Positions 8,901 through 26,961 of a DNA stretch of 64,000 nt are shown here, in pieces. Position 1 is the stretch's first letter. Every line of letters begins with the position of its first letter. The notes beneath the pieces are model-generated. The model had not been told where the DNA came from. It made no database searches and was given only the letters and a program-made list of their open reading frames with translations. The DNA comes from Olivibacter sp. SDN3. Its GTDB lineage: Bacteria > Bacteroidota > Bacteroidia > Sphingobacteriales > Sphingobacteriaceae. A program made the translations under genes and the position numbers. The DNA lies in the NCBI RefSeq assembly GCF_014334135.1, contig NZ_CP060497.1, forward strand, positions 5,890,001 to 5,954,000. The letters run 5' to 3'.

Positions 8901-9084
8901 TGGTGCCATAGGTAATCGCACCATCGGTGCTTCTGCAGCTGGAGGTATGCTTTTCGGGACGATTTTCGGTGTAATAATTGTTCCCGGACTGTACTACATA
9001 TTCGGCAAACTGGCAGAAAACAGGCAGCTAATCAGACATGAAGATGAAAATCCGTTAACCGAAGAAATGAATCACCATGCATAA
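5917..9084 (+). CDS. RND multidrug transporter, HAE1 family (AcrB/MexF-like)
   Basis: A 1055-residue proton-driven inner-membrane exporter. It starts with FIKRPVLAIAISLVIIFMG, the first of twelve membrane helices, and has two large periplasmic loops. TM4 contains GVVVDDAIVVVE with the paired aspartates of the proton relay, and the HAE1 signature MTGPVGIFYRQFSITMA follows. The C-terminal half carries VGLLGKNAVLIVEFA and a MTSFAFIAGLIPLV segment. These features place it with drug/hydrophobe pumps and not with metal pumps. The last 8 bases overlap the start of the outer-membrane gene, indicating translational coupling. Intact and of the usual length. Confidence 0.95.
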   Translation: MFNIFIKRPVLAIAISLVIIFMGFLSINTLPISQFPSIAPPRVMVSVAYPGASADVLVQSVLIPMEKAINGTPGMKYMSSDATSAGEATVQVVFDLGVDPDQAVVMVKNRIEQVTNRLPELVQREGIIVNIVQPNMLMYVNVYSTDAQANENFLYNFANVNILQEVQRLSGVGQATILGSRQYAMRIWLKPDRMRAYNVSTDEVMEALDNQSVIGSPGRIGRSDGKRSEALEYVLTYQGRYNDPEQYKNVIVRANADGEILHLKDLADIELGSEFYDIYSNLNGHPSAAIMLKQNYGSNASDVIKEVKAKMDEIKASSFPPGMDYEISYDVSGFLNASINKVIHTLVEAFLLVSIVVFLFLGDWRSTLIPTLAVPVSLIGAFIFMQFFGLTINLITLFALVLAIGVVVDDAIVVVEAVHAKMEEEHLSPYKAVKKVLHEIGGAIIAITLLMTAVFVPVAFMTGPVGIFYRQFSITMACAIVISGVVALTLTPVLCAMILKNTHGKTKKKTPIDKFMDGFNRLFERLTGRYTRLLKLIVHRKVITFGVLLIFGIGILGISNDLPAGFIPNEDQGMIYAIVQTPPGSTLERTNDLSRKLQALAEQVEGIQSVSSLAGYEVLTEGRGSNAGTCLINLKDWSERKQTVDEIIEELEEKAKEIPGATIEFFGPPAVPGYGAAGGFSLRLLDKTNNDDYKELEKVNDDFMAALGKRKELKGLFTFFSANYPQYELEIDNKAAMQKGVSIGKAMDNLSVLIGSSYELGFIKFGNFFKVYVQAAPEYRRLPSDLMQLYVKNNRDEMVPYSAFMKIKKSQGLNEITRFNMYTSSAIRGESAPGFSSGEAIKVVQEVAAKTLPRGYDIDWEGLSKDEVGRGNEALYIFLIVLGFVYLVLAAQYESFILPLTVVCSLPVGVFGSFLLLKLMGLANDIYAQVGLVMLVGLLGKNAVLIVEFAVQKHHHGATVLEAAIEGAKVRFRPILMTSFAFIAGLIPLVFAHGPGAIGNRTIGASAAGGMLFGTIFGVIIVPGLYYIFGKLAENRQLIRHEDENPLTEEMNHHA

Positions 9085-10510
9085 AAACAGCATATATAAA
9101 TACTTAGGGATCTTTTGTGTATCCCTAACGTACATGGCTTGTAAAACACCTTCCTTAGTGGAAAAAACCGAGGATAAAGCTATCCCTACGCGTTACAGCA
9201 ACTCCCAGGATAGCATCAATAGCGCAACAGTACAATGGAAAGAATATTTTACCGATCCATACCTGAATGCCTTAATAGATACAGCCTTGGAAAACAATCA
9301 GGAACTGAACATCACGCTACAGGAGATTGAGGTAGCCCGAAACGAAATCAGAGCCAGAAAGGGAGAATACCTGCCCTTTGTTGGTGTAAGAGGTGCTGCC
9401 GGTTTCGAAAAGGTAGGCCGCTATACCAGTAGAGGCGCCAGCGAAGCCACCACAGACATCAAACCGGGTAAGGAAATGCCAGAACCCCTGCCCGACTATC
9501 TTTTGGGTGCCTACGCCACTTGGGAAGTGGATATCTGGAAAAAGCTACATAATGCCAAAAAAGCTGCAATAAGCAAATACTTATCGACCGTGGAAGGCAA
9601 AAACTTCGTTATTACAAATCTCATTGCCGAAATTGCCAATGCCTATTACGAGTTATTGGCGCTTGACAATCAACTGGATATCGTTAGAAAGAACATGGAT
9701 ATACAAAGTAATGCTTTGGAAATTATGAAATTACAAAAAACGGCAACAAGGGTCACTGAGCTTGCGGTGCGTCGGTTTCAAGCCGAGGTATTCAATACCA
9801 AAAGTCTGCAATACGACATCCAACAGGAGATCACCGAAACTGAAAATAAGATTAACTTTTTACTGGCCCGGTACCCCCAACCGATTCCAAGGAATAGCAA
9901 AAACTTCGAAAACGCAGTTCCGCCAGTTGTACATGCAGGCATCCCTTCACAATTATTAGCCAATCGGCCAGATATCAAACAGGCAGAAATGGATCTCGCC
10001 GCCTCAAAGCTAGACGTGAAAGTAGCTAAGGCGTCTTTTTATCCGTCTTTGGGCATTTCTGCATCCATTGGTTACCAAGCTTTTAACCCGAGATACCTCA
10101 TCAATACACCGGAATCATTGGCTTACTCCTTGGTTGGTGATTTGGTAGCTCCGCTGGTTAACAGGAATGCCATAAAAGCCACCTACTATAGTGCCAATGC
10201 CGAACAGATACAGGCGGTGTACCATTATGAGCAGACCATTTTAAATGCTTATGTTGAAGTCGTTAACCAACTGAACAAGATCAACAATCTCGAACAGCGT
10301 TATGATCTGAAAGCTAAGCAAGTGGAAGCATTGACCCAATCAATCGATATATCCAACAGTCTTTTCAGTTCAGCAAGAGCGGATTATATGGAAGTGCTGT
10401 TAACACAAAGGGATGCGCTGGAATCAAAATTCGAGCTAATAGAAACCAAGAGGCAACAAATGAATGCCCTGGTCAATATCTATCAAGCTTTGGGAGGCGG
10501 TTGGAATTAA
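9077..10510 (+). CDS. Outer-membrane efflux lipoprotein (OprM/NodT type)
   Basis: The third part of the tripartite exporter, 477 residues. The signal ends in YMAC (Cys22 lipidated). Two outer-membrane-efflux repeats are seen: the first starts at DPYLNALIDTALENNQEL and the second at LLANRPDIKQAEMDLAASKL, the standard NodT-family marker. LGAYATWEVDIWKKLHNAKK is the conserved beta-barrel strand. It should form a trimeric channel through the outer membrane. It overlaps the pump gene by 8 bases and is followed by a strong terminator, so it closes the operon. Confidence 0.93.
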   Translation: MHKNSIYKYLGIFCVSLTYMACKTPSLVEKTEDKAIPTRYSNSQDSINSATVQWKEYFTDPYLNALIDTALENNQELNITLQEIEVARNEIRARKGEYLPFVGVRGAAGFEKVGRYTSRGASEATTDIKPGKEMPEPLPDYLLGAYATWEVDIWKKLHNAKKAAISKYLSTVEGKNFVITNLIAEIANAYYELLALDNQLDIVRKNMDIQSNALEIMKLQKTATRVTELAVRRFQAEVFNTKSLQYDIQQEITETENKINFLLARYPQPIPRNSKNFENAVPPVVHAGIPSQLLANRPDIKQAEMDLAASKLDVKVAKASFYPSLGISASIGYQAFNPRYLINTPESLAYSLVGDLVAPLVNRNAIKATYYSANAEQIQAVYHYEQTILNAYVEVVNQLNKINNLEQRYDLKAKQVEALTQSIDISNSLFSSARADYMEVLLTQRDALESKFELIETKRQQMNALVNIYQALGGGWN

Positions 10511-12725: not shown

Positions 12726-12790
12726 GTCGATAAAGTGATATATCTCGTCGAAATTGGGCAAGAGTGTTCTGTATAATATCCTTAGCTTTG
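12726..12790 (+). promoter_or_regulatory. AraC-type operator and promoter of the fucosidase gene
   Basis: Two direct half-sites, GTCGATAAAGTG (TCGA at 12727) and GTCGAAATTGGG (TCGA at 12748), are 21 bp apart. A TAGCTTTG -7 box follows at 12783-12790, 35 bp after the second TCGA. The same layout recurs at 14761-14825 and 22153-22218. No -33 TTG is present at normal spacing, which fits an activator-dependent promoter. Confidence 0.75.
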
Positions 12791-12885
12791 GATAATATTT
12801 CACGCCATTTTATAAACCACGTTTTCAGAACAAAATTTCAGAAAACTGATTTCATACCAAGACTGAAAAGTAAGAAGAGAATCCA

Positions 12886-14529
12886 ATGAAAAGAAGAAGT
12901 GTAATAAAAGCCCTGGGAATAGCAATACCCGCCCTTTGGCTGAGCAGGTCGGCCGCTGGTTCAGGTTTGCGCACCCTGCATGCCAATGCTCCGATTGCCA
13001 AAGCCAACTTTAAGCCAGATTGGAAGTCGCTCGAGCAGTACCGGGTTCCCGACTGGTTCCGTGATGCAAAATTCGGTATCTGGGCACACTGGGGTCCTCA
13101 ATGCCAGCCAGAAAGAGGCGATTGGTACGCCAGGGGTATGTATCAGGAAGGAAGCGATCAGTACAAATACCATGTGCAAAAGTACGGGCACCCATCCAAG
13201 TTTGGCTTTAAGGATGTGATCAATGAGTGGAAGGCTGATAAATGGGACCCCGAATCGCTATTAGATCTTTATAAGCGCGCGGGTGCCCAGTATTTTGTTG
13301 CACTGGCCAACCATCATGACAATATGGACCTCTACGATAGCAGCCATCAGCCGTGGAATGCCGTTAAGATGGGGCCGAAAAAGGACCTGATGGCGGGCTG
13401 GGCGAAAGCGGCAAAGAAACGGGGTTTACGTTTCGGTGCAAGCGTACACGCTGCACATGCCTGGACATGGTACGAGACCGCTCAACGGGCAGACAAAAAA
13501 GGGACGCTGAAGGGTGTTCCCTATGACGGAAAAGTAACCGAATCTGACGGAAAGGGTAAATGGTGGGAAGGATTTGACCCGCAGGACCTCTATGCACAGA
13601 ATCATCCCCTGAGTGAGAATAGCCTGGACGACGGGATGATTCACCGGCAGTGGCATTGGGGCGAGGGCGTCAATGTTCCTACGAAGAACTATTGTGATAC
13701 TTTTCATGACCGGACTGTCGAACTGATCGATAAGTATGCGCCTGACCTGGTGTACTTTGATGATACGGCCCTGCCTTTGTGGCCCATCGATGATGCCGGA
13801 CTCCGGATTGCCGCCCATTATTACAACACCAATCAGCAAAAACATAAGGGCAAGCTGGAGGCGGTTATAAATGGGAAAATTCTGGATGAACAGCAACGTA
13901 AATGCATGGTGTGGGATATCGAACGCGGGCAGAGCAACCAGATCGAGGAAGATCCCTGGCAGACCTGTACATGCATCGGCGCCTGGCATTATGACAGGCG
14001 GATCTATGATAATAAAAGCTATAAGAGCGCGAAGACCGTTATCCATATGTTGGTTGATGTGGTCAGTAAAAACGGGAATCTGTTACTGAGCGTTCCCCTT
14101 CGAGGAGACGGTTCTATTGATTCGGAGGCGCAGAAAACCGTTGAGGGCATTGCTTCCTGGATGGACGTTAACAGCGAGTCCATCATCGGTACCAGACCCT
14201 GGAAGCTTTTCGGGGAAGGGCCTGCGATGGAAGGTGCCGCGCCGCTTTCTGCCCAGGGTTTCAATGAAGGAAAAAACAAGCCTTTCACCGCGCAGGATAT
14301 ACGATTTACGACTAAGGGTGATGTGCTGTATGCCATTGTCATGGGATGGCCAGAGGCGGAAAACCTGTTGGTCAAAAGCCTAACAGCTAACAACCGCAGG
14401 GTTAAAAGCGTAACGTTTGTGGGAACAAATGAAAAGCTGAAATTCAAACAGACAGCCGATGGTCTTGAGGTCACATGGCCGCAGGTTGCAGATGGAAGCC
14501 AGCCTGCATATGTACTAAAGATCAGCTGA
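12886..14529 (+). CDS. GH29 alpha-L-fucosidase, exported
   Basis: This 547-residue glycoside hydrolase should release terminal L-fucose from oligosaccharides. The N-terminus MKRRSVIKALGIAIPALWLS is a Tat-like signal, so it acts in the periplasm or at the surface. The GH29 catalytic barrel shows WFRDAKFGIWAHWG (about 58-71), YFVALANHHDNMDLYDS and PDLVYFDDT; Asp292 in the last motif is the probable nucleophile. A MLVDVVSKNGNLLLSVPLRGDG segment closes the barrel, and a C-terminal beta-sandwich follows. It stands alone between its own operator/promoter and terminator, and is the clearest clue that the locus handles fucosides. Codon use is GC-richer than flanking genes. It appears intact. Confidence 0.9.
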   Translation: MKRRSVIKALGIAIPALWLSRSAAGSGLRTLHANAPIAKANFKPDWKSLEQYRVPDWFRDAKFGIWAHWGPQCQPERGDWYARGMYQEGSDQYKYHVQKYGHPSKFGFKDVINEWKADKWDPESLLDLYKRAGAQYFVALANHHDNMDLYDSSHQPWNAVKMGPKKDLMAGWAKAAKKRGLRFGASVHAAHAWTWYETAQRADKKGTLKGVPYDGKVTESDGKGKWWEGFDPQDLYAQNHPLSENSLDDGMIHRQWHWGEGVNVPTKNYCDTFHDRTVELIDKYAPDLVYFDDTALPLWPIDDAGLRIAAHYYNTNQQKHKGKLEAVINGKILDEQQRKCMVWDIERGQSNQIEEDPWQTCTCIGAWHYDRRIYDNKSYKSAKTVIHMLVDVVSKNGNLLLSVPLRGDGSIDSEAQKTVEGIASWMDVNSESIIGTRPWKLFGEGPAMEGAAPLSAQGFNEGKNKPFTAQDIRFTTKGDVLYAIVMGWPEAENLLVKSLTANNRRVKSVTFVGTNEKLKFKQTADGLEVTWPQVADGSQPAYVLKIS

Positions 14530-14578
14530 TCTTTATGGTGTTAAATTCCTGAATTAGTTAATTGGTTCATAATGGTTG

Positions 14579-14607
14579 GTGTGCCCCGGAAGGGGCACAC
14601 TGTTTTT
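14579..14607 (+). terminator. Terminator after the fucosidase gene
   Basis: GTGTGCCCC (14579-14587), loop GGAA, GGGGCACAC (14592-14600), then TGTTTTTG. A strong hairpin that separates the fucosidase from the susC unit. Confidence 0.88.
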
Positions 14608-14759
14608 GAGGGCCCCACTTCGCTTCAAGAGTCATACGCATCAAAGAAAAGTAAAGCGATTTCATGTTCCTGCTTTAGGTTGGAAATGGAATGCCTTCTA
14701 ACCTTGCGCTGCAAACGGTGATGAAGCAGTCTGGCAAAAAATATCGATAGATCTAAAAT

Positions 14760-14825
14760 ATCGATAAAGTGCAATAAATAGTCGAAAAAGGGATCAAATA
14801 AGTGGAGTAAAAGCAGTTACCTTTG
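14760..14825 (+). promoter_or_regulatory. AraC-type operator and promoter of the fucose susCD unit
   Basis: Half-sites TCGATAAAGTG (14761) and GTCGAAAAAGGG (TCGA at 14782) are exactly 21 bp apart; a TACCTTTG -7 box lies at 14818-14825, 36 bp after the second TCGA. An extra partial half-site (ATCGATAG near 14743) is out of register. The layout matches the operators at 12726 and 22153. Confidence 0.78.
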
Positions 14826-15200
14826 ATTATTGTGTAAAACCGATTTAAAACTGCTGATACCTTATATAGCTAATTCCTGATATTCAATATTTTATCCGGT
14901 CAGCCAAGCATTTTTTGGCGGGAAAGCCTTTGCAGTTACCAATGTATTTATTGTCTTTTTGACACTAATAGGAAAACAGGGATGCCCTTAAAACTAAATA
15001 TATGATTACCAGAAGAAACAACTGCATACGTTATGGATGATACCGTTTACGTTAATCCTGTAACCAAATTTTAAACCGATAAAATGATATCCCGATAGAT
15101 GGCCTGCGAAGCCTTTACCGGGTAGGCTAACCGCTAATACCTCTCCCAACGGCATCCAGAATGGGCGGTAGGGACAAATAATAACCAAAACTAAAATCTG
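14826..15200 (+). other. Long leader region ahead of susC
   Basis: If transcription starts from the TACCTTTG box at 14818, about 370 bases of untranslated leader precede the susC ATG. No convincing small gene is seen. Short inverted repeats exist near 15109-15127 (AGCCT/AGGCT). A second promoter nearer to susC cannot be excluded, but I see no TAnnTTTG box there. Confidence 0.4.
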
Positions 15201-18200
15201 ATGGAAAAAATAAACTATTCCACATCGCTCAGACAGGGCATGATGTCTATCCTGCTGCTATGCTGGTGCGTAATATTGGCCCATGGTCAGCAGACGCACG
15301 ACCTTTCGGGACAGGTGACCGATACCAAGGGCGCGCCCTTGCCGGGAGCGAGCGTAACAGTGAAGGGCTCCCCGCAAGCAATTTCCACTAATAACGAGGG
15401 CCGCTTCAGCCTCAAACTTTCCACCATACCGGCTACTTTGGTGGTCACCTTTACAGGCTTTGAAAGAAAAGAAGTCCATGTAACGGAACAGAAGACACTG
15501 ACCATTCCGCTGGTGGAACTGGCGGCAGATCTCGATGAGGTCGTTGTTGTCGGTTACGGTACCCAGAAGAAAGTGAACCTGACCGGTTCGGTCTCCTCGG
15601 TTTCCGCAGCAGAGATAGAGGATAGGCCCATTACGCAGGCTTCGCAGGCCTTGGCAGGCCTGGCCACCGGTGTTTCGGTCTCCCAGAGTGCGGGGCGGCC
15701 CGGAAATGATGGCGCCGCTATCCGCATCCGGGGACAGGGTACTTTTTCGGGCGCCGGTAACGAACCGCTGGTACTGATAGATGGGCTGGCTGCCTCGATG
15801 AACGATATCGATCCCAATAATATCAAAAGTATATCCGTGCTGAAGGATGCAGCTTCTGCTTCCATTTACGGTACGCGGCGCCAATGGGGTCATCCTGATA
15901 GAGACCAAGCGCGGTACCAGTGGCCGGCTCCGTGTTTCTTACAACAATACTATCGGCTGGCAACAGGTGACCCAGCTCCCTGATTTTGTGGGTTCGGCCG
16001 ACTATGCCACACTTTTCAATGAAGCTAACCGCAATGTGGGACAGGCGCAGAGTTATACGGATGAGGAGATTGATAAGTTCCGTTCGAGAACCGACCCGGA
16101 CAACTATCCGGACGTACCTCATCTTAAAAACCTGTTATCTTCCGGATCGGGTTTTCAGATGAACCATAATGTTTCTTTCTCCGGCGGTTCCGAAAAGAAT
16201 TCCTATCTATTCTCCTTGGGCTATCTCGATCAGGATGGCGTGGTGGCCAAAAACAATTATCGACGCTATAATTTCATGCTAAACTCGGATAGCAAAATCT
16301 TGGATAACCTGACCCTAAAGGTGAACATGACGGGGAATGACGCGAGGACCAATGAGCCCAGGCAATTCGATGGGGAAATGATGAGCATGATCGGTTTTGC
16401 AGTAAGGCAGGGTCCCATCTATGCGGGACGGAAATCGGACGGCACTTTTGGCTATCAGGATAACTACAGTCCAGAGGCATGGCTATCGAGCGAATCGTTC
16501 GTGAACCGCGCCAACAGGTTCTTCCTGGGCGGCACGGAGCTTGCCTGGGAAATTGTTTCGGGACTTACCCTAAGCGGAAAAGCCGGATACAATTATACAA
16601 ACTACACCAATAACAGTTTTGCTTCTGATTTTATTTTCGATGCCAATAAACGCTTAGGCCCGAATAATCTCACCGTCAACTCGGGAGACAACTCGTTAGT
16701 GACCCTCCAATCCCTGCTGCAGTTCAATAGGACTTATGGAAAGAATGCGATCAATGCGCTGGGAGGCTATTCAGAAGAAAGGTTCCGCTCTGACTGGACG
16801 TCCGCTTTCCGGGATGATTTTCCGAGCAACCTGCTGCATGAGCTGAATGCGGGATCTTCGGCCAATATGCAATCGTCAGGTTCGGCTGCCGAATGGGCAT
16901 TGCGCTCGTTCTTCGGACGGATAAATTATATATTGGACGACCGCTATCTTTTTGAGGTGAATGCACGTTATGATGGGACTTCACGCTTTCCAAGCGAAGG
17001 CCGTTGGGGCCTGTTCCCTTCGATCTCGGCCGCCTGGCGTATTTCCGAAGAAGCCTTCTTTAAAGAAAATTTCCGCGGAGTGGACAATCTCAAGTTGCGT
17101 GCCTCCTGGGGAACGCTCGGAAACCAGAATATCGGGAACTATCCCTACCAGAATGTACTGAGCCTGGGCAATAACTACCCCGTCGGCGGTGTCCTGCTCC
17201 CGGGTGCCCGTTTGACGACACTGGCCAACAGCGATATTACCTGGGAAACGACCGAGGTCAGGGGAATAGGGCTTGACTTTTCACTGCTGCAGGGTAAGCT
17301 CGCTTTCGTAGCGGACTATTTTGACAAGCGGACGCGGGATATCCTGTATAATCTTACGGTATCGAGTGTGCTGGGGTTGACGCCTTCGGAAGTAAACGCC
17401 GCCTCGGTAAGGAACAACGGGTTTGAATTCCTGATGGACTATCGCACTTCCATTGGAAAGGTAAACATCGGTTTTAGTCCCAATTTCACCTATACGAAGA
17501 ACCGTGTCACAAAACTGGCCGATGGCCTAATGCAGGATATCGCCAAAGGCCTTTTTGTCGGACAGCCGTTGGGCGCCATTTACGGCTATGTGGCCGATGG
17601 TCTTTTCCTGGATGAGAACGACATTGCGGTCTACCCGGGGCAGCCCTATGCCGCGCAGGCCGGATTCGTCCGGTATGCCGATATCGGCGGTCCCGACGGG
17701 GTGCCCGATGGCGTGGTCGACCCTGCCAATGACCGTACGATCATCGGCAACACCGTACCCAAATTTAGTTATGGCGCCACCATTCGCTTAGATTATAAAG
17801 GTGTTGATCTTTCGGTGCTGTTACATGGTCTGGCAGGCTTTGACCGGCAGATGGGCTCTTATCAGGCCTTTGCCTTCTACAATGGCGGGCAGATCCAGCG
17901 TTGGCAGGCCGATAACCGGTGGACAGCAGAAAACCCCGACCGGAATGCGGAATATATCAAACTTACTAGCCTGAATATGGGCTCTGGAACCATCATGCCA
18001 TCTACTTTTTGGAACCGGAACGCAAGTTTTCTCCGGTTGAAGAACATACAGCTAGGTTACTCGTTTCCGGAAAAAATCACCGATAAGATGGGATTGAACA
18101 GATTGCGTGTGTTCTTTAGTGGTCAGAACCTGTTCTCCATAAACAGCTTTTACCGGGGATGGGACCCGGAAATGGGACAGGGAGTAGGCGATAATACGCC

Positions 18201-18252
18201 GTTTTATCCCATAACAAGCGTATACACTTTCGGGGTGAACGTTAATTTTTAA
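15201..18252 (+). pseudogene. SusC/RagA-type TonB-dependent transporter, frameshifted
   Basis: A fucose-locus outer-membrane importer. Frame one (15201 to about 15880) gives a signal peptide, a carboxypeptidase-regulatory-like domain (LSGQVTDTKGAPLPGASVTV), the TonB-box region and plug (DEVVVVGYGTQKKVNLTGSV), and ends at SISVLKDAASASIYGTR. The protein then continues in another frame as GANGVILIETKRGTSGRLRV and runs through the whole beta-barrel to TFGVNVNF at 18252. The join is at 15873-15885, where ACGCGGCGCC is two bases short of the family's T-R-G-A coding sequence. Without repair it makes a plug fragment of about 225 native residues and no barrel. The partner SusD gene follows after 21 bases. 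Sequencing error is possible but the site is not a homopolymer. Confidence 0.88.
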
Positions 18253-18273
18253 TTGCAGCGAAATAATAACCAA

Positions 18274-19911
18274 ATGAAAAGGATCATGAAATTCATTAAA
18301 TATTCAAGCCAAACAAAGCTATGCCATTTGCTTTTGGCTATATGTGTACTTCTGGGAGGTTGCAGCAAAGATTTCTTTGATAAGCAGCCATTAGATGCCG
18401 TTTCGGACGCTACGTTCTGGAAAACAGAAAAAGATGCGCTGCTTGCGCTGATCGGCTGTTACAACACGGGGGCCGGTTGGAAGGGTGAAGATTTCTGGAC
18501 ACCCCGTAGTCTGTTATATCTGGACCTGATGGCGGGAAGCGGCTCGGAAAAAGAGCTGATCCCGGATCGGGTAACGGATGGCGCCCTGAATTCAGCCTAT
18601 TGGGTGACTGAGGGATACTGGCGCAACGCTTACCAAAAGCTGTCGGCCTGTAACAACTTCCTGGATCATATCGACCAGGTGGAAATGGACGAAAACGCAA
18701 AGGCGGCCATGGTGGGTGAAGTCAAGACTTTAAGGGCTTATGAGTACTTCAATCTGGCACTTTATTTTGGCGGCGTTCCCTTAGTTACCAAAGTGCTGAG
18801 CATAGAAGAGGCAAACAGTGTTATGCGTGCCTCGCGTGACGAAGTATGGGATCTGGCAGAATCGGACCTGCAGGAAAGCGCAGCTGTTCTGCCAACAAGC
18901 AGATCTGCCAGTGAACAGGGGCGCATCACTGCGGGGGCAGCACTGGCTATCCTCGGACGCTTACAGATGGCACGACAGAAATGGGCCGAGGCGGCCGAAA
19001 GCTACAAAAAGATCATCGACTCTGACGTGTACCGTATCCACCCCGATTTTACAGCGCTTTTCGCGGCCAGCAACGTTGCCAACGGTGAATTTGTTCTTAC
19101 CTCCCAATACCTCGAAGATGTGTACGGGCATGTGCTGCCGCAATACCTTTACCCGGAAACATGGGGTGGATGGCACCAGTTCTCCCCTTACAACGAACTG
19201 GTAAAGGCGTATGCGTGTAGCGATGGCAGGCCAATCGAGGAATCGGACCTATACGATCCGGAAGATCCCTATACCAACAGAGATCCCCGTTTGGATTATA
19301 CCGTACTCATTTCCGACAGGAGTGTCTTTAAGGGGCAGACCTATATTGCCAGGCCCGGGACAACCTCGCCAGACCGTTTTAACCGCTATAACTGGAGCGG
19401 CTACTGCATACGCAAGTTTATGGATGAAAACTTCGAGGGGAACTTGATGAACTTCGGGGGCAATTTTGCTGTTATCCGTTATCCGGAAGTATTGCTGGGC
19501 TATCTGGAATCCAAAATGGAGGCTGGTGATCCGATCGATCAGGCATTGCTGGATGCAACCATCAATCTGGTGCGGGGAAGGCAGAATGTTGCCATGCCCG
19601 CTGTTACCGTAACTGGTACGGATGCGCTGCGCGAAACTATCTGGAGGGAACGCAGGGTGGAGTTTGCTTTTGAAGGATTACGCTACTATGATGTGCTGCG
19701 CTGGGGAATTGCCACCCAGGAGCTGAATAGGCAGTTTACCGGTATGAAGCTTACCAATAATCCTGGCAGTTACAATGATTTCCCGGTGGACGCAGAAGGC
19801 TATCTCATTTATCAGCGGAGAAACTTTAAGGAGGGGGTGAATGAACTGTGGCCTATCCCGCTCTCGGAGCTGCAGGTGAACGGGAACCTCACGCAGAATC
19901 CCGGTTACTGA
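18274..19911 (+). CDS. SusD/RagB-type surface nutrient-binding lipoprotein
   Basis: A 545-residue partner of the susC gene just upstream. I chose the ATG at 18274 and not the TTG at 18253 because it puts a clean signal before the LLGGC lipobox (Cys30). The mature protein begins SKDFFDKQPLDAVSDATFW, the usual SusD opening, has TPR-like helices (RAYEYFNLALYFGGVPLVTK) and the family end WPIPLSELQVNGNLTQNPGY. SusD caps the SusC barrel and captures glycans at the cell surface. The gene is intact, but its SusC partner is frameshifted. Confidence 0.92.
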   Translation: MKRIMKFIKYSSQTKLCHLLLAICVLLGGCSKDFFDKQPLDAVSDATFWKTEKDALLALIGCYNTGAGWKGEDFWTPRSLLYLDLMAGSGSEKELIPDRVTDGALNSAYWVTEGYWRNAYQKLSACNNFLDHIDQVEMDENAKAAMVGEVKTLRAYEYFNLALYFGGVPLVTKVLSIEEANSVMRASRDEVWDLAESDLQESAAVLPTSRSASEQGRITAGAALAILGRLQMARQKWAEAAESYKKIIDSDVYRIHPDFTALFAASNVANGEFVLTSQYLEDVYGHVLPQYLYPETWGGWHQFSPYNELVKAYACSDGRPIEESDLYDPEDPYTNRDPRLDYTVLISDRSVFKGQTYIARPGTTSPDRFNRYNWSGYCIRKFMDENFEGNLMNFGGNFAVIRYPEVLLGYLESKMEAGDPIDQALLDATINLVRGRQNVAMPAVTVTGTDALRETIWRERRVEFAFEGLRYYDVLRWGIATQELNRQFTGMKLTNNPGSYNDFPVDAEGYLIYQRRNFKEGVNELWPIPLSELQVNGNLTQNPGY

Positions 19912-19940
19912 TCGCAATAATGGAAGGTTAATTACTGCAG

Positions 19941-19970
19941 GCAGTGCTTCTTATCGAGAGCACTGCTTTT
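19941..19970 (+). terminator. Terminator after susD
   Basis: GCAGTGCT (19941-19948) pairs with AGCACTGC (19959-19966) and is followed by TTTTATC. It lies between susD and the convergent regulator fragment. Confidence 0.75.
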
Positions 19971-19971
19971 A

Positions 19972-20337
19972 TCATTTTGGGATGACGGAGGAAGAAGGTT
20001 CGTTCAGCTCTGACATCCTGCGCTGCATCTTTCCCGGATTCTCCCCTGAAATCTTTTTGAAAAGTCGGTTGAAATAGGAAACGTTTTCAAAACCCAATTG
20101 ATAGGCAAGTTCCTTGATGCTCAGGTTCCTGACAAGCATCATCAGTTGTGCCTGCTCGATTTTTTTTTGGTTGATATATTTCCCAGGGGTAGATTGCATC
20201 TGCTTTTTGAAAAGACGGATAAAATGGTCTTCAGTCAGGCAGGATACTTTAGCCAGTTCCTCTATTTTTATCGGCTTATCAATATTGCTGTGGATAAAGT
20301 GGATAGCCTGGAGTACGCGTTCGTCCAAACCCCGGTT
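19972..20337 (-). pseudogene. AraC-family regulator, C-terminal DNA-binding half
   Basis: This fragment encodes the two helix-turn-helix motifs of an AraC/XylS regulator: DERVLQAIHFIHSNIDKPIK, then IEELAKVSCLTEDHFIRLFK, then LSIKELAYQLGFENVSYFNR and the FKKISGENPGKMQRR tail. The N-terminal half lies on the other side of IS copy A (21588-22106). Removing the IS and one GTT duplication joins codon AAC to CGG and restores one frame of 293 residues, the normal AraC length. This half has no proper start; a TTG at 20326-20328 is the first in-frame candidate. It is the likely reader of the 21-bp-spaced operators in this locus. Confidence 0.9.
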
Positions 20338-20367
20338 TGGAATTGCAACTTAAAATAGGAGACTTTT

Positions 20368-21198
20368 TTATGCTGCCATTTTCTCTTTTTCCAATAGCAT
20401 CTCTTCGATCTGCTTAGGGGTTTTATATCCCAGGGCAGAATGTGTTCTTTTGGTATTATAAAAACCTTCAATATATCCAAAGATCTCCAATTTAGCCGAT
20501 TGCTGATCGATGAATTTTCTATGGTAGATCATTTCAGCCTTTAGTGTCTTGAAAAAGCTCTCAGCTACTGCATTGTCCCAGCAATTGGCCTTCCTACTCA
20601 TGCTTTGAAGTATCTTGTTTTTTACAATTACCCTCCTGAATTCATCGCAGGCATATTGGATCCCTCTATCCGAATGGAAGATAAGACCATCTTTGATACC
20701 TCGGTTTCTAATAGCCATTTTGATGGCTTGTACAGAAGTGTTTTTAGTCGTCATATCGGTGCTTAAAGACCATCCAATGACTTTTCTGTCCGCCAGATCG
20801 ATAACCGTTGTTAGATAAAGCCACCCTTTGCCGGTATGGATGTAAGTAATGTCGCTAACCCATTTTTGCGATAGGGAATCCGCTGAAAAATCTCTTTGGA
20901 GGAGATTTTCAGCTATCCTATAACTATGGCTCGAATCTGTGGTCACCCTATATTTTTTCTTAACCTTACTTCGTATCCCATGTTTCTTCATCAATCTTGC
21001 TACGTAGCTTCTTGATACCATTTCACCTTTTTTGTGCAGCTCTGCGGTTATCCGTGGGCTGCCATAGATATACTTACTGTCACTGTGTACCTGCTGTATT
21101 TTATCCACAAGTGCTTTACTGCGTTGTTCCCTGGGGGATTCGGGCCAAACCAGCCAACGGTAAAAACAACTGCTGCTAACGTTCAATACTTCGCACAT
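20368..21198 (-). CDS. IS3-family transposase OrfB (copy A)
   Basis: The catalytic part of the transposase, 276 residues as an independent frame from its ATG. The DDE integrase core is seen: WVSDITYIHTGKGWLYL with the first Asp, GLIFHSDRGIQYAC with the second, and NCWDNAVAESFFKTLKAE with the Glu. A C-terminal YNTKRTHSALGYKTP motif is typical. The true product is probably an OrfAB fusion made by a -1 frameshift on A6G at 21279-21285 (read on the minus strand), because the OrfB frame is open upstream and encodes IYRFIKENREVYSVEKM there. Confidence 0.93.
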   Translation of the reverse strand: MCEVLNVSSSCFYRWLVWPESPREQRSKALVDKIQQVHSDSKYIYGSPRITAELHKKGEMVSRSYVARLMKKHGIRSKVKKKYRVTTDSSHSYRIAENLLQRDFSADSLSQKWVSDITYIHTGKGWLYLTTVIDLADRKVIGWSLSTDMTTKNTSVQAIKMAIRNRGIKDGLIFHSDRGIQYACDEFRRVIVKNKILQSMSRKANCWDNAVAESFFKTLKAEMIYHRKFIDQQSAKLEIFGYIEGFYNTKRTHSALGYKTPKQIEEMLLEKEKMAA

Positions 21199-21230
21199 CT
21201 TCTCTACGGAATATACTTCTCGGTTCTCCT

Positions 21231-21530
21231 TTATGAACCGGTATATGGACCGTCTCCCCTGGAGAAGATGGCTATGGCCTTTTTTAAGATATCGCGTTCT
21301 AATTCTGTATCTCTTAATTTCTTGCGTAAAATCCTTAACTCCTGCTCCTCCGGACTGATCTTGGGATTGTCAGGTAAAACCTTATTCCCATTATAACGTG
21401 GATTTCTACGCCATTTACTCAGTAAACTGGGGTCTATGTCTAATTCCTTAGCTACATCGGCTACAGATCCCTTAACAACGCTCAAATCGACCGCCATTAT
21501 CTTAAACGAATCATCAAATTTTCTATGCAT
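21231..21530 (-). CDS. IS3-family transposase OrfA (copy A)
   Basis: A 99-residue DNA-binding protein with an N-terminal helix-turn-helix (FKIMAVDLSVVKGSVADVAKE and SLLSKWRR) and a leucine-zipper-like helix (EEQELRILRKKLRDTELERD) for multimerisation, as in IS3/IS150 OrfA. Identical to copy B. Confidence 0.93.
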   Translation of the reverse strand: MHRKFDDSFKIMAVDLSVVKGSVADVAKELDIDPSLLSKWRRNPRYNGNKVLPDNPKISPEEQELRILRKKLRDTELERDILKKAIAIFSRGDGPYTGS

Positions 21531-21587
21531 TTCTACAAATTTAAAATTACTGTCTAAATCTGTCTCGCTTTAAAGGTAGCAACTCCA

Positions 21588-22106
21588 GTTCTTTTCGGAC
21601 GCCCCTGCCAGAAAGCGCGAAATGATCTGTTTCAGGATGCCTTCTGTTTCCATTTCCAGTGCCGGCAATGCATGCGTATGCTGACTGATATTCTTCATCA
21701 GTGTCGGCGAGTTATCATAGTCTTTGGGATCATATGCCTTCAGCTCCAGTTTGGGGTTCACTGCTATCAGTCGCCGGACGAGCCCTACGGTCATCTCATC
21801 CGCTTCCAACTCGACCGGAAAATCAAGTATGTCAAAAATGCTCAATTGCTTTTCCAGGGCTTCATAAATATGAATGTAGTACAAGGATAGGTCGCCTGTA
21901 CACGAATAGCCATGTTTGGTATAGGGCGGAGTCAGATACAAATGACCTTCTTTCAAGACGTACCGGTCGTTCTCACGGACAATTTCGGCAGATCCGCTTT
22001 CCACAAAATGAATACGGGCAAAAGGACTGTATATGTTCTTCCAGTTCCAATCCGCATGGTGGATGGCATGTCCAATATTCAGTAAGATAAAATCACGTTT
22101 GATCAT
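21588..22106 (-). pseudogene. AraC-family regulator, N-terminal sensor half
   Basis: The first 173 codons of the regulator, with the cupin-like sugar-binding domain of AraC proteins (FVESGSAEIVRENDRYVLKE and HLYLTPPYTKHGYSC). Translation runs into IS copy A and stops after five foreign residues (WSCYL), so the product lacks any DNA-binding domain. It is divergent from the aldo/keto reductase gene and shares with it the intergenic region that holds the 22153-22218 operator, the classical arrangement for AraC control. The C-terminal half is at 19972-20337. Confidence 0.9.
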
Positions 22107-22152
22107 GTGTCCTTTCGTAATGGTCTGTAACGAATAAAAGTAACAATAAAAA

Positions 22153-22218
22153 GTCGATAAAGTGCATCATTTTATCGAAAAAGAATACTGGAGAACGAAA
22201 CGGCATTATGTACATTTG
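22153..22218 (+). promoter_or_regulatory. AraC-type operator and promoter of the reductase operon
   Basis: Half-sites GTCGATAAAGTG (TCGA at 22154) and ATCGAAAAAGAA (TCGA at 22175), 21 bp apart, with a TACATTTG -7 box at 22211-22218, 36 bp after the second TCGA. The spacing equals that at 14760-14825. It lies between the divergent regulator gene and the aldo/keto reductase, so it may also affect the regulator. Confidence 0.78.
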
Positions 22219-22247: not shown

Positions 22248-23180
22248 ATGGAATATAGAGAAATAGGCAGAACAGGCATGAAAGTGTCAAATCTTAGTTA
22301 TGGAGCCTCCTCCCTTGGAGGTGTCTTCCATTCACTTAAAGAAGAAGCGGGCATCGATTCTGTGTTAACGGCAGTGGAGCACGGTATCAATTTTATCGAT
22401 GTGTCGCCTTATTACGGACACCTCAGGGCAGAAGTGTTATTGGGTAAGGCCCTGAAGAAAATAGACCGGTCACTTTATTATATCTCCACCAAGGTTGGCC
22501 GTTATGGCAAGGATGGGGTTAACTACTGGGATTATTCGGCCGCAAAAGCCAGGGAGAGTGTATATGAGAGTATGCAGCGCCTGCATGTAGATTATATAGA
22601 CCTCATTAACGTGCACGATGTAGAGTTTGCGGATCTGGACCAGATCTGTGACGAGACACTCCCCGCCCTGTGTGAATTGAGGGATGAAGGATTGGTGAAA
22701 CATGTGGGTATCACCAATTTAAATTTAAGGCATTTCCAGTATATAATAGACCGGGTGCCACCGGGAACGGTGGAAAGTGTACTATCGTTCTGCCATTATA
22801 CCCTCAATGATGATGCGTTGGCTGATTACCTGGATTATTTTGAACGGAAAGAAGTAGGTGTGATCAATGCCTCTCCCTATTCCATGGGCCTACTTACGGT
22901 AAGGGGGGCGCCGGACTGGCATCCTGCTCCTGCGGCACTGAAACGTCTGGCCAGAAAAGCAGTTGATTTCTGTCTGCAGCGGGGGATTTCAATAGAAGAG
23001 CTGGCCATATCCTACGCCGTTAACAATCCCCGGATCGCTACTACGCTGTTCAGTACAACCAATCCCGAAAATGTTATGCAAACCATCGGATATGCCCGGG
23101 CGCAGCTGAATGAGGATGTTTTAAAACAGGTGCGCCATATTTTTGACCCCGGGTTCGGGGATAGCTGGGTGAACAGTTGA
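22248..23180 (+). CDS. Aldo/keto reductase, probable L-fucose dehydrogenase
   Basis: A 310-residue NAD(P)-dependent oxidoreductase. The catalytic tetrad can be placed: Asp51 and Tyr56 in FIDVSPYYG, Lys in YISTKVGRYG and His in LINVHDVEF; the cofactor-binding C-terminal TLFSTTNPENVMQTI follows. It resembles L-galactose/L-fucose dehydrogenases, which oxidise the free sugar at C1 to the lactone. With a fucosidase, FucP-type transporter and mutarotase in the same regulon, L-fucose is the likely substrate. No lactonase or fuconate dehydratase is in the window, so the rest of the pathway must lie elsewhere or be lost. First gene of an operon with the dehydrogenase 9 bases on. Confidence 0.85.
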   Translation: MEYREIGRTGMKVSNLSYGASSLGGVFHSLKEEAGIDSVLTAVEHGINFIDVSPYYGHLRAEVLLGKALKKIDRSLYYISTKVGRYGKDGVNYWDYSAAKARESVYESMQRLHVDYIDLINVHDVEFADLDQICDETLPALCELRDEGLVKHVGITNLNLRHFQYIIDRVPPGTVESVLSFCHYTLNDDALADYLDYFERKEVGVINASPYSMGLLTVRGAPDWHPAPAALKRLARKAVDFCLQRGISIEELAISYAVNNPRIATTLFSTTNPENVMQTIGYARAQLNEDVLKQVRHIFDPGFGDSWVNS

Positions 23181-23189
23181 AATAAGTCG

Positions 23190-23838
23190 ATGAAAGCAAT
23201 CCAGATCAAAGGACCCGGAGAAGTGGCCCTGATAGAGATAGAAAAGCCCGAAATAATATCGGGACATGTGATGCTGAAAATGGAATTTGTCGGCTTTTGC
23301 GGCTCGGACCTGAATACTTTCACGGGACTGAACCCGCTGGCAAAAAAGCCCATAGTTCCCGGTCACGAGATCGGTGCCCGTATCCATGAAGTCGGTGAAG
23401 AGGTGCCATCATTTCTGAAGCCCGGCATGAGCGTTACCGTAAACCCTTACACGAGCTGTGGTAAATGTCCTGCCTGCAATAATTTGAGACCAAATGCCTG
23501 CGAGTTTAATCAAACCCTGGGTGTTCAGCGCGACGGGGCCATGGCTGAGTACCTATTGGTACCCTGGACAAAGGTAGTTACCGAGGCGGCAATCCGGGTC
23601 GACGAACTGGCATTGGTGGAACCGCTGAGCGTAGGGTTCCATGAAAGATTATCGGAAACCACCGGAGGAAAGGGAGCAGATGTGGTCATCGAAGCGGTAG
23701 GCAGACCTGAAACATATGTAGCAGCCATTTCAGAAGCTGCCTTTACCGGACGGGTGGTTTATATCGGTTACGCCAAAGAGAAGATACCTTTTGATACGCA
23801 ATATTTTGTGAAAAAGGAATTTAACATTATGGGCTCAC
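23190..23838 (+). pseudogene. Zinc alcohol dehydrogenase, N-terminal part with internal deletion
   Basis: A medium-chain dehydrogenase broken twice. The zinc-binding N-terminal domain is present: GFCGSDLN (catalytic zinc Cys), PGHEIGARI, and the structural-zinc cluster TSCGKCPACNNLRPNAC. After LALVEPLSVGFH the sequence jumps to ERLSETTGGKGADVVIEAVG, so roughly 60 residues with the GxGxxG NAD-binding fold are missing (junction about 23638-23645, in frame). Then IS copy B interrupts the gene after GSRNAT-type sequence starts (at 23838). Even without the IS, the product could not bind NAD normally. Its role was probably sugar or sugar-acid oxidation in the fucose operon; exact substrate unknown. 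Confidence 0.88.
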
Positions 23839-23895
23839 TGGAGTTGCTACCTTTAAAGCGAGACAGATTTAGACAGTAATTTTAAATTTGTAGAA

Positions 23896-24195
23896 ATGCA
23901 TAGAAAATTTGATGATTCGTTTAAGATAATGGCGGTCGATTTGAGCGTTGTTAAGGGATCTGTAGCCGATGTAGCTAAGGAATTAGACATAGACCCCAGT
24001 TTACTGAGTAAATGGCGTAGAAATCCACGTTATAATGGGAATAAGGTTTTACCTGACAATCCCAAGATCAGTCCGGAGGAGCAGGAGTTAAGGATTTTAC
24101 GCAAGAAATTAAGAGATACAGAATTAGAACGCGATATCTTAAAAAAGGCCATAGCCATCTTCTCCAGGGGAGACGGTCCATATACCGGTTCATAA
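23896..24195 (+). CDS. IS3-family transposase OrfA (copy B)
   Basis: Same 99-residue protein as in copy A: helix-turn-helix followed by a leucine-zipper-like helix. Codons TTA AAA AAG at 24140-24148 contain the slippery heptamer A AAA AAG (24141-24147); a -1 shift there fuses it to OrfB. Confidence 0.93.
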   Translation: MHRKFDDSFKIMAVDLSVVKGSVADVAKELDIDPSLLSKWRRNPRYNGNKVLPDNPKISPEEQELRILRKKLRDTELERDILKKAIAIFSRGDGPYTGS

Positions 24196-24227
24196 AGGAG
24201 AACCGAGAAGTATATTCCGTAGAGAAG

Positions 24228-25058
24228 ATGTGCGAAGTATTGAACGTTAGCAGCAGTTGTTTTTACCGTTGGCTGGTTTGGCCCGAATCCCCCAGGGAAC
24301 AACGCAGTAAAGCACTTGTGGATAAAATACAGCAGGTACACAGTGACAGTAAGTATATCTATGGCAGCCCACGGATAACCGCAGAGCTGCACAAAAAAGG
24401 TGAAATGGTATCAAGAAGCTACGTAGCAAGATTGATGAAGAAACATGGGATACGAAGTAAGGTTAAGAAAAAATATAGGGTGACCACAGATTCGAGCCAT
24501 AGTTATAGGATAGCTGAAAATCTCCTCCAAAGAGATTTTTCAGCGGATTCCCTATCGCAAAAATGGGTTAGCGACATTACTTACATCCATACCGGCAAAG
24601 GGTGGCTTTATCTAACAACGGTTATCGATCTGGCGGACAGAAAAGTCATTGGATGGTCTTTAAGCACCGATATGACGACTAAAAACACTTCTGTACAAGC
24701 CATCAAAATGGCTATTAGAAACCGAGGTATCAAAGATGGTCTTATCTTCCATTCGGATAGAGGGATCCAATATGCCTGCGATGAATTCAGGAGGGTAATT
24801 GTAAAAAACAAGATACTTCAAAGCATGAGTAGGAAGGCCAATTGCTGGGACAATGCAGTAGCTGAGAGCTTTTTCAAGACACTAAAGGCTGAAATGATCT
24901 ACCATAGAAAATTCATCGATCAGCAATCGGCTAAATTGGAGATCTTTGGATATATTGAAGGTTTTTATAATACCAAAAGAACACATTCTGCCCTGGGATA
25001 TAAAACCCCTAAGCAGATCGAAGAGATGCTATTGGAAAAAGAGAAAATGGCAGCATAA
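24228..25058 (+). CDS. IS3-family transposase OrfB (copy B)
   Basis: DDE integrase-type transposase, same as in copy A. The ATG at 24228 is the first in this frame, but the frame is open upstream through the frameshift site at 24141-24147, so the functional enzyme is probably the OrfAB fusion of about 380 residues. Catalytic Asp, Asp and Glu motifs are all present, so the element looks active. Confidence 0.93.
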   Translation: MCEVLNVSSSCFYRWLVWPESPREQRSKALVDKIQQVHSDSKYIYGSPRITAELHKKGEMVSRSYVARLMKKHGIRSKVKKKYRVTTDSSHSYRIAENLLQRDFSADSLSQKWVSDITYIHTGKGWLYLTTVIDLADRKVIGWSLSTDMTTKNTSVQAIKMAIRNRGIKDGLIFHSDRGIQYACDEFRRVIVKNKILQSMSRKANCWDNAVAESFFKTLKAEMIYHRKFIDQQSAKLEIFGYIEGFYNTKRTHSALGYKTPKQIEEMLLEKEKMAA

Positions 25059-25088
25059 AAAAGTCTCCTATTTTAAGTTGCAATTCCA

Positions 25089-25261
25089 CACGCAATGCCA
25101 CCATGAAGGACTTTGAGGCAGTAATCCGCTATCTGAAGACAGGGAAATGTCCTACTGATGACCTGGTAACTGCAGTTTACCCACCAGAAGCTGCCCAGCA
25201 GGCTCTGGAGAACTGGAATAAAAAACCTGCCGAAGTATTTAGGGTTTTAATTGAATTTTAA
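25089..25261 (+). pseudogene. Zinc alcohol dehydrogenase, C-terminal part
   Basis: The end of the dehydrogenase interrupted by IS copy B. Joined across the IS, the sequence reads NIMGSRNATMKDFEAVIRY and continues through CPTDDLVTAVYPPEAAQQAL to the family-type end FRVLIEF, stop at 25259-25261. Too short for the usual gene calling but clear when the IS and one CAC are removed. Confidence 0.88.
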
Positions 25262-25312: not shown

Positions 25313-26568
25313 TTGAGAAAGAACAATTATTCCCCGGCCCTTGCACTCGTCTTCAGCCTGTTTTTTATCTGGGCAATCAGCAGCAATCTTTTGCCAACCA
25401 TGATCCGCCAGTTGATGAAAACCTTCGACCTGAATGCCTTTCAGGCTTCATTTACGGAAACGGCCTACTGGCTCGCATATTTTGTGTTTCCCATACCCAT
25501 AGCGATGTTCATGAAAAGGTACAGCTATAAGGCAGGGATTGTTGTCGGACTGACTATAGCCGCTTTCGGGGCGCTGCTTTTTTTACCGGCAGCGCTCTTT
25601 AAGTCTTACTGGCTCTATCTCATCATTTTTTTGTTATAGCCACCGGAATGTGCTTTCTAGAGACAGCCGCCAATCCTTACATCACGGTGCTCGGAGATCG
25701 CAATTCATCTTCCCGCAGGTTGAATCTTGCCCAATCCTTTAATGGCCTGGGGGCTTTCGTTGCAGCAATGTTTCTGAGCAAAATGATCCTGAGCGGACAT
25801 AATTTCACCAAGGAGACGCTTCCAGTTTCCTATCATGGGGGCTGGGAAGCATATATTGATTTTGAGACAGCGGCAATGAAACTTCCCTATCTGGTACTGG
25901 CGGCAATTTTACTGATCTTAGCTGTTGTATTTATATTTTCCAGACTTCCCGCCATAAATGAGGATGCCGGCAGGATAAATGCCGGTCAGGGAAACCGTTT
26001 GATCGACTTTGATGTTTTAAAACGCTCCCACCTCCGACGCGGCGTTATCGCCCAGTTTTTTTATAATGGTGGCCAAACGGCGATCAACAGTCTATTTCTG
26101 GTATATTGCTGCACTTATGTTGGTATCAGCGAATCCACCGCTACAACCTTCTTCGGGTTCTACATGCTCGCCTTTTTGTTGGGGAGGTGGATGGGCACGA
26201 CCCTTATGGTCAGGTTCAGGCCGCAGGACATGCTGCTTGTTTATTCCCTGGCCAATATTTTTCTGTGTCTGGTTATCATGTTTTTTGGTGGTATGACAGG
26301 CCTTTACGCCATGCTGTTTGTTTCATTCTTTATGTCGATCATGTATCCTACACAATTTTCATTGGCACTTAAAGATCTGGGGGAAAAAACAAAAAGCGGT
26401 TCCGCTTTTCTGGTGATGGCCATCGTTGGCAATGCATGTTTGCCGCAAATGACAGCTTACGTTATGGACAATTTTTCGGGGCAATACCAACGGGCATACA
26501 TTGTGCCGCTGGTATGTTTTGTTTTCTGTGCATATTATGGTTGGAAAGGATATAAAATTAGCGATTAA
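25313..26568 (+). pseudogene. FucP-type L-fucose/proton symporter (MFS), frameshifted
   Basis: A 12-helix major facilitator close in pattern to E. coli FucP: FQASFTETAYWLAYF, IPIAMFMKRYSYKAGI, GMCFLETAANPYITVLG and RLNLAQSFNGLGA are all family hallmarks. The first 108 residues end in a stop after YLIIFLL; the rest (from MCFLETAAN) is in another frame to 26568. The break is in a run of seven T at 25626-25632; eight T would give YLIIFFVIATGMCFLE without interruption. Start is a TTG at 25313; an upstream start was not found. It lies 51 bases after the dehydrogenase remnant, in the same operon. A homopolymer slip could be real, variable, or a sequencing error. Confidence 0.85.
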
Positions 26569-26574
26569 TATTTT

Positions 26575-26961
26575 ATGGAAGAGGTTAGAAAAGATATGGG
26601 TTATCCGCAGAAGAAAAACGGATTTCAGACCAAACGCTACTGCCAGACGCTAGAATTGAAAGACGACCCTTTGCTCATCGATGAATATGTCAGGCGACAC
26701 AGTCTGCCGGATCACTGGCCCGAAATAAGAGAGGGTATCCGTTCTGTAGGGATTCTAGAAATGGAAATTTATCATGTAGGTACCACGCTTTTCATGGTTA
26801 TAGAAACCCCTTTGGATTTCAACTGGGAGCAAGCATTTAAAGAATTGTCCAAAAAGCCCAGACAGGCCGAATGGGAGAAGTCTATGAATATTTTTCAAGA
26901 TGCCGATTCAATATTGGCTTCCGCAAAATGGAAGATAATGGAGCGGATTTTTCACCTTTAA
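26575..26961 (+). CDS. L-rhamnose/L-fucose mutarotase family protein (RhaM-like)
   Basis: A 128-residue protein of the RhaM (DUF718) family, which interconverts alpha and beta anomers of 6-deoxy-sugars. Family marks are RYCQTLELKDDPLLIDEYVR at the start of the ferredoxin-like fold, HWPEIREGIRSVGILEMEIYHVG with the catalytic His, and a conserved C-terminal W-x-x-M-N-x-F. In a fucose locus it would present the correct anomer to the dehydrogenase. It follows the transporter by 6 bases and is the last gene before the terminator. The first 18 residues may be an extension; internal starts exist (ATG at 26596). Confidence 0.85.
   Translation: MEEVRKDMGYPQKKNGFQTKRYCQTLELKDDPLLIDEYVRRHSLPDHWPEIREGIRSVGILEMEIYHVGTTLFMVIETPLDFNWEQAFKELSKKPRQAEWEKSMNIFQDADSILASAKWKIMERIFHL

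Follow-up and report, generated by a model that had tools for sequence, protein, structure and literature searches.

A candidate AraC-type fucose regulon in Olivibacter sp. SDN3, with three predicted operators at a fixed distance from the promoter and an interrupted regulator gene

Introduction

In Escherichia coli, AraC acts at araI1-I2, where tandem half-sites lie about 21 bp apart and the nearer one adjoins the -35 region. More generally, the class II arrangement of AraC-type activators places two DNA-binding domains two helical turns apart on one face of the DNA, with the closer of them directly before the -33 region. Here we describe three repeats of comparable layout in a 64,000-nt stretch of the genome of Olivibacter sp. 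SDN3 (hereafter the window, in whose coordinates all positions are given), where they accompany fucose-use genes and a gene for an AraC-type regulator that is split by an insertion sequence (IS). Judging from sequence, we put at about 0.87 the probability that an AraC-family activator controls a fucose-use regulon through the three repeats as its operators. The comparison with E. coli AraC is one of layout and not of half-site letters; the sugar and the promoter class differ.

Closer counterparts have been described in Bacteroidota. PMC3878776 reports a 21-bp periodicity for Bacteroides RhaR, an AraC-family regulator responding to rhamnose; for the AraC-type hybrid two-component systems (HTCS) of Bacteroides thetaiotaomicron it predicts direct repeats whose tandem sites are on average 21 bp apart, with monomers on one side of the DNA. 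RhaR resembles the window's regulator in being an AraC-family sugar regulator of Bacteroidota; it controls rhamnose genes, however, and the likeness rests on the period rather than on motif letters or box distance. HTCS share the AraC-type DNA-binding domain, but they have a periplasmic sensor, a kinase and a receiver, whereas regulators of the window's type have only a cupin-type sensor and a helix-turn-helix (HTH). Fucose use in B. thetaiotaomicron is controlled by FucR (PMC3878776), which has the predicted role in common with the window's regulator but belongs to another protein family, GntR. Within the accessible portions of the openly licensed literature searched, including PMC3878776, PMC3870299 and PMC5698469, no AraC-type fucose regulon was found for this group. 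Already known, then, are the 21-bp direct repeats of Bacteroides AraC-type regulators; added here are a putative fucose regulon with unusually clear comparative footprinting and the observation that its regulator is broken in SDN3.

Three repeats and their promoter boxes

A preliminary description of this DNA had reported two TCGA half-sites exactly 21 bp apart at 12727/12748, 14761/14782 and 22154/22175, with the same first half-site in all three, and a TAnnTTTG box beginning 35, 36 and 36 bp past the second TCGA. The letters and coordinates of the window bear this out. Operator 1 (12727..12758, plus strand, as are all three and their boxes) consists of TCGATAAAGTG at 12727 and TCGAAATTGGG at 12748; it lies upstream of a GH29 fucosidase gene, has orthologous sites in relatives and is followed at 35 bp by the -7 type promoter box TAGCTTTG (12783..12790; we use the -7/-33 promoter consensus). 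Operator 2 (14761..14792) combines TCGATAAAGTG at 14761 with TCGAAAAAGGG at 14782 upstream of a susC-like gene, and its box TACCTTTG (14818..14825) stands at 36 bp. Operator 3 (22154..22185), with TCGATAAAGTG at 22154, TCGAAAAAGAA at 22175 and the box TACATTTG (22211..22218), again at 36 bp, is the one that was said to lie between the divergent regulator and reductase genes, and it does, the reductase being of the aldo/keto type. All three are tandem direct repeats at a spacing of two helical turns.

The full layout, TCGA-N17-TCGA-N31/32-TAnnTTTG, has three matches in the window and none in 100 dinucleotide shuffles. Across the 6,118,654-bp genome, TCGATAAAGTG-N10-TCGA occurs three times, always at the fucose locus, and its reversed control does not occur. 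When RTCGATAAAGTG-N9-RTCGAAA is allowed up to 3 mismatches, 14 places are found (controls 11); the three operators match without a mismatch and the other 11 places have exactly 3. A fourth genomic match to the bare pattern (G000:C1:1448382) is without the motif letters, lies inside a 197-aa reading frame (L187) and was taken as chance. The regulon members recognisable in the SDN3 genome are therefore the GH29 fucosidase, the susC-like and the aldo/keto reductase genes. From box to reading frame, operator 2 leaves 375 bp ahead of susC; the leaders of the other two genes are far shorter. The nearer (second) half-site is weaker in the window than in most relatives, which have TCGATAanGt.

Regulator and sites occur together

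In a survey of 301 genomes of the family, the sensor half of the regulator was matched at E 0.001 in 92. Identity was at least 45% in 26 of these, the window's own genome among them, and at most 38% in the rest; the 45% limit used to call genomes with or without the regulator was chosen after this gap was seen, and among the 275 'without' genomes are 66 with a match at lower identity. The layout gives 66 matches in 44 of the 301 genomes. Adding TCGAT[AT]nnGT leaves 39 sites in 25 genomes, that is, in 25 of the 26 with the regulator and in none of the 275 without. Genus g16 has 26 genomes with the fucosidase; of the 22 that also carry the regulator, 21 show this strict layout, and none of the 4 lacking the regulator does. 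Sites are thus present in relatives that carry the intact regulator, where the preliminary description had named their absence from orthologous genes as the finding that would speak against it. A pattern without the box was dropped in favour of the full layout: it matched in 51 of the 301 genomes, in places with the same sequence in several (e.g. TCGATATTGTGCTTGGTGAAGTCGA), and such recurring matches look like conserved coding sequence.

Regulator orthologues are found in Olivibacter domesticus (G063) and O. jilunii (G052), both of the window's genus (g1), in Parapedobacter tibetensis (G092) and in Sphingobacterium (several genomes of g16); further relatives of the protein occur in Chitinophaga and in many Bacteroidales, the latter mostly metagenome-assembled. 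In relatives the sites precede fucosidase, RhaM-like mutarotase, dehydrogenase or reductase genes. The layout stands upstream of a susC-type gene in one further case (G294, L184), there without the strict letters; elsewhere susC may closely follow the fucosidase gene (e.g. L046, L048, L049). Regulator and site need not be neighbours: in six genomes with the TCGA type of site (type A; G231, G141, G207, G243, G255 and G291), the regulator is about 41-54 kb from the site-bearing fucosidase gene. In O. jilunii, a reading frame of 716 aa, about 22 kb away from the regulator gene, follows a TCGATAAAGTG site with a box (L183:4813); the encoded protein is dissimilar to those of the window and is possibly an extra regulon member.

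Anatomy of the sites

TCGA-N17-TCGA pairs were collected 20-400 bp upstream of reading frames of at least 100 aa from 51 sources, with no box demanded. This gave 48 physical sites. TAnnTTTG follows at 35 or 36 bp on a single strand in 40 of them and on both strands in none; 31 boxes stand at 35 bp, 9 at 36 bp and 3 at another distance. This count includes the window and loci fetched around layout matches (L173-L182, L184-L186). At loci chosen by the regulator alone, which leaves out the window and the fetched loci, the box stands at 35 or 36 bp in 28 of 36 sites (21 + 7) and elsewhere in 2. Among the eight boxless sites, apparent near-boxes lie at about the expected place in L059, L131 and L051, and others may not be sites. 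Seen from the fucosidase gene, 20 loci chosen by the regulator alone yield 17 upstream regions; the 21-bp TCGA repeat is present in all 17, and the box stands at 35 or 36 bp in 16. Together with the co-occurrence across genomes (25/26 versus 0/275), these regions support the assignment of the sites to the locus's AraC protein, which the preliminary description had put forward from the repeat period, the conserved half-site and the lack of a normal -33 TTG. Two repeats upstream of genes, L045:12810 and L047:15155 (the latter gene fucP-like), are TCGA-N17-TCGA pairs with no exact box 35 or 36 bp on.

The consensus of 31 non-redundant boxed sites in relatives is aAAagTCGATAaaGTgcaa.tTTTtgTCGATAa.Gt, in which TCGA and the box were required and are invariant by construction. 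Between the nearer half-site and the box, information content stays at or below 0.41 bits at every aligned position. That half-site stops shortly before the place of a would-be -33 element, with the box at its fixed distance. The preliminary description had further noted the absence of a normal -33 TTG, with which the counts agree only weakly. TTG at -24 to -17 of the box is not enriched, being present in 7 of 31 site promoters versus 24 of 63 other TAnnTTTG promoters from the same loci; the comparison stretches give 3/31 versus 8/63 at -14 to -7 and 11/31 versus 11/63 at -40 to -33, within the half-site. The contrast is a weak sign that the sites may replace the -33 element.

Half-site letters drift, geometry stays

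Genomes that have only a distant AraC protein (about 28-36% identity) carry, upstream of some fucosidase genes, another 21-bp repeat, e.g. AGTCGGTTTTGTA...AGTCCnATT (type B). Of 30 fucosidase upstream regions, the TCGA repeat is found in 15 and the type-B repeat in 8; the remaining 7 (L190, L194, L208, L209, L210, L215, L216) lack both. A lag of 21 bp gives the top self-similarity in both types: 9.14 against a mean of 6.97 (standard deviation 0.28, largest 7.57) for 14 type-A regions at regulator-chosen loci, and 8.35 against a mean of 6.84 (standard deviation 0.24, largest 7.41) for 17 type-B regions not read beforehand. With all regions included, the values are 9.00 and 8.15. The type-B repeat is present in 19 of 28 regions, and in all 19 a box nAnnTTTG stands at 35 or 36 bp (exactly TAnnTTTG in 15). 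Eight of the 28 (L200, L202, L203, L205, L213, L214, L217, L218) were taken after the repeat was seen. The criterion for the other 20 (L219-L238) was an AraC match no further than about 6 kb from the fucosidase, L231 and L235 having already been seen without the repeat; without the eight, the repeat is found in 11 of 20 regions and the box at 35 or 36 bp in 11 of 11. In the surveyed family genomes, then, the layout with the motif letters is found only where the regulator is present, and where there is only a more diverged regulator the letters differ and the geometry stays. Both types meet in Chitinophaga fulva (L123), where the type-A regulator lies next to a TCGATAAAGTAC site and the type-B regulator next to a AGTCGGATTTGTA site. 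The recognition helix reads L[TS]kDHxIR in most type-A proteins and n.[DE]YFSR in type B; its residues differ between the groups and appear to change in step with the half-site letters.

Traces of the same geometry extend to the Bacteroidales (37 loci: L133-L148, L150-L168, L170, L171). A TCGR half-site 55-58 bp before a box, a distance demanded by the test, lies within 250 bp of the regulator, on the strand leaving it, in 10 of the 37; five other distance windows of equal width near the regulator give 0, 0, 2, 1 and 0. At greater distance from the regulator, the 55-58 bp window yields 7 matches in 578 kb, including L139 and L167, where the match is more distant but within the same intergenic region. 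In nine Prevotella-type loci, which have ATAATATTGTC-N10-ATAATATT, the first copy precedes the box by 56 bp, here without the distance being required, and in a tenth (L171) the box is elsewhere. Neither kind of half-site is present in 13 Bacteroidales loci. A second half-site 21 bp on is clear in L134, L142, L143, L144 and the Prevotella type, altered in L135 and shifted to 22 bp in L139; it is not clear in L137, L140, L147 and L150. With these last four loci in view, we put at even odds the broader proposal that a single lineage of AraC-type fucose regulators spans the Bacteroidota, its operator geometry locked and its letters drifting with the protein (TCGATAAAGTG, TCGGTTTTGTA, TCGATAAAATCC, ATAATATTGTC). 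Locked geometry here means a first half-site 56-57 bp and a second, where visible, 35-36 bp before TAnnTTTG, and the lineage would comprise Olivibacter, Parapedobacter, Sphingobacterium and Chitinophaga as well as relatives in Tannerella, Dysgonomonas, Bacteroidaceae and Prevotella.

The spacing may also occur at other promoters. Among 183 non-redundant promoters that a filter called non-fucose, lag 21 is the commonest (26 promoters versus 2-9 for other lags); at a stricter setting, lag 21 counts 6 and lag 22 counts 5. Ten of the 26 look fucose-type despite the filter (L060, L123, L156, L221, L222, L225, L228, L229, L231, L233). About 16 promoters that do not look fucose-type and have a 21-bp repeat before the box remain, above any other lag, but the filter was poor and no general 21-bp rule is claimed; they might be sites of other AraC-type regulators.

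The interrupted regulator

The regulator gene lies on the minus strand between the susD-like and reductase genes, and an IS separates its sensor and HTH domains. The sensor half (21588..22106, minus strand; AraC_binding/Cupin_2) is divergent from the reductase gene, and the DNA-binding half (HTH_18/HTH_AraC by domain matches) occupies 19972..20337 on the same strand. The C-terminal double HTH of AraC type (PF12833 and PF00165) scores above cut-off in the window piece and in two intact orthologues, as does the cupin-like N-terminal ligand-binding domain (PF02311). These two orthologues, of 294 and 286 aa, combine AraC_binding and HTH domains; no sensor kinase or receiver domain of the HTCS kind was found in either, nor a GntR HTH domain in the intact orthologues examined. 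Their closest named match is AraC (NCBIfam AraC, 78.9 bits, below the cut-off of 208); in the PDB, the AraC DNA-binding domain 2k9s comes closest in sequence (E 3e-9). At E 0.001, the sensor half has no other match in the SDN3 genome.

Since the gene is split, the three intact operators of SDN3 are probably left without their normal activator, and they most likely belong to a decaying copy of a fucose regulon with class II-type AraC operators. The DNA-binding half keeps a 118-aa reading frame of its own (19972-20328), with a TTG start right after the IS and in the same direction as the transposase. That this half acts without its sensor domain, as residual or constitutive activation, is a slim prospect.

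Weighing the explanations

Operator 3 ends 48 bp from the start of the regulator gene, where a bound protein could also block the regulator's own promoter, and this would suit a repressor, or a regulator from a different family, that is no more than a neighbour in the cluster. We consider such an origin of the repeats unlikely: the motif letters track AraC type A versus type B across genomes and within one genome, a repeat at a fixed distance upstream of a promoter box fits an activator, and tandem 21-bp repeats are the form published for AraC-type regulators in the work cited above. Common descent of the promoters, with no selection on the repeats, draws on the near-identity of some relatives, in that 31 of 40 sites are left after dropping those more than 85% alike. 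Against it stand the spacer between the nearer half-site and the box, which is poorly conserved unlike the half-sites, the orthologous regulators, which range down to 50% identity with the first one, and the placement of sites at different genes (fucosidase, mutarotase, dehydrogenase, reductase), so that this account is highly improbable. Chance or low complexity is more improbable still. Lone half-sites with at most 2 mismatches are indeed no commoner in the window than in shuffles (22 versus 18.9 expected), but the paired site with its box, and the paired site genome-wide, were absent from the respective shuffles and control.

Several observations weigh against operators of an AraC-type activator. 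The bare pattern, which is found in 25 of the 26 genomes with the regulator, is also matched in 19 of the 275 regulator-less genomes, there without the motif letters, and the Fisher value for the association, 1.2e-35, overstates independence because the genomes are related. One regulator genome of the 26 (G053) is without the strict layout, and in another (G282) one fucosidase gene (L190) has no site of its own. At regulator-chosen loci, 8 of the 36 repeats lack an exact box at either distance, the type-B repeat is missing from 9 of the 28 fucosidase regions of that type, and the -33 TTG result is weak. In the window itself, the nearer half-sites are poor and operator 2 is unusually distant from its gene.

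If the three repeats are operators of such an activator, the 21-bp period would set two DNA-binding domains on one face of the DNA, and a ligand-bound regulator dimer would fill both half-sites. The nearer subunit would then touch RNA polymerase in place of the -33 contact, as in class II activation, with transcription expected to start about 7 bp past the box. The ligand may be L-fucose or a product of it; fucose is proposed as the signal because of the fucosidase, fucP-like permease (a sub-threshold match) and mutarotase genes.

Outside Bacteroides, whose described fucose regulator belongs to a different family, a fucose regulon would thereby gain a well-defined predicted operator. The fixed distance between activator and promoter could help to predict AraC-type sites in Bacteroidota, and with protein and half-site drifting together across species, recognition could be tested by swaps in laboratory strains. 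In addition, the window appears to hold a regulon caught in decay, with intact operators beside an interrupted activator gene. If the single-lineage proposal above is true, the lineage would lend itself, as a natural series, to working out how AraC recognition helices specify DNA letters and how activation works at Bacteroidota promoters that lack a clear -33 element.

The gene cluster and its damage

On the plus strand, the cluster begins with the GH29 alpha-L-fucosidase gene (12886..14529; Pfam PF01120, PF16757), the susC-like gene (15201..18252) and the susD-like gene (18253..19911; PF07980, PF14322). Alignment to an intact relative (L046) places a frame change in susC near 15870, between frames 15201-15983 and 15847-18252. 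Beyond the regulator follow, again on the plus strand, the aldo/keto reductase gene (22248..23180; PF00248), a broken zinc alcohol dehydrogenase gene (23190..25258), a FucP-type major facilitator superfamily permease gene in two frames (25313..26568, frame change near 25600) and a RhaM-like mutarotase gene (26575..26961; PF05336). The second fucP-like piece alone has TIGR00885 fucP as its best match (223.5 bits, under the cut-off of 280.4). Compared with a relative, the dehydrogenase gene is short of about 64 residues, absent in frame near 23640 within the stretch 23190-23852.

The IS in the regulator gene (20338..21587, minus strand, 1,250 bp, ends read from the flanks), which we take to be of the IS3 type, has a transposase reading frame at 20368-21198 and a 3-bp target duplication, GTT. 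An identical copy lies inside the dehydrogenase gene (23839-25088; target duplication CAC). The two are in opposite orientations, with perfect 3-bp target duplications and a BLAST stretch of 1,252 bp at 100%, and they are probably recent insertions. The frame changes in susC and fucP could be real decay or sequencing error; sequencing error is unlikely for the two IS insertions. Further upstream in the window (5917-10510), a resistance-nodulation-division-type efflux pump gene and an outer-membrane factor gene were recognised, judged from translations only.

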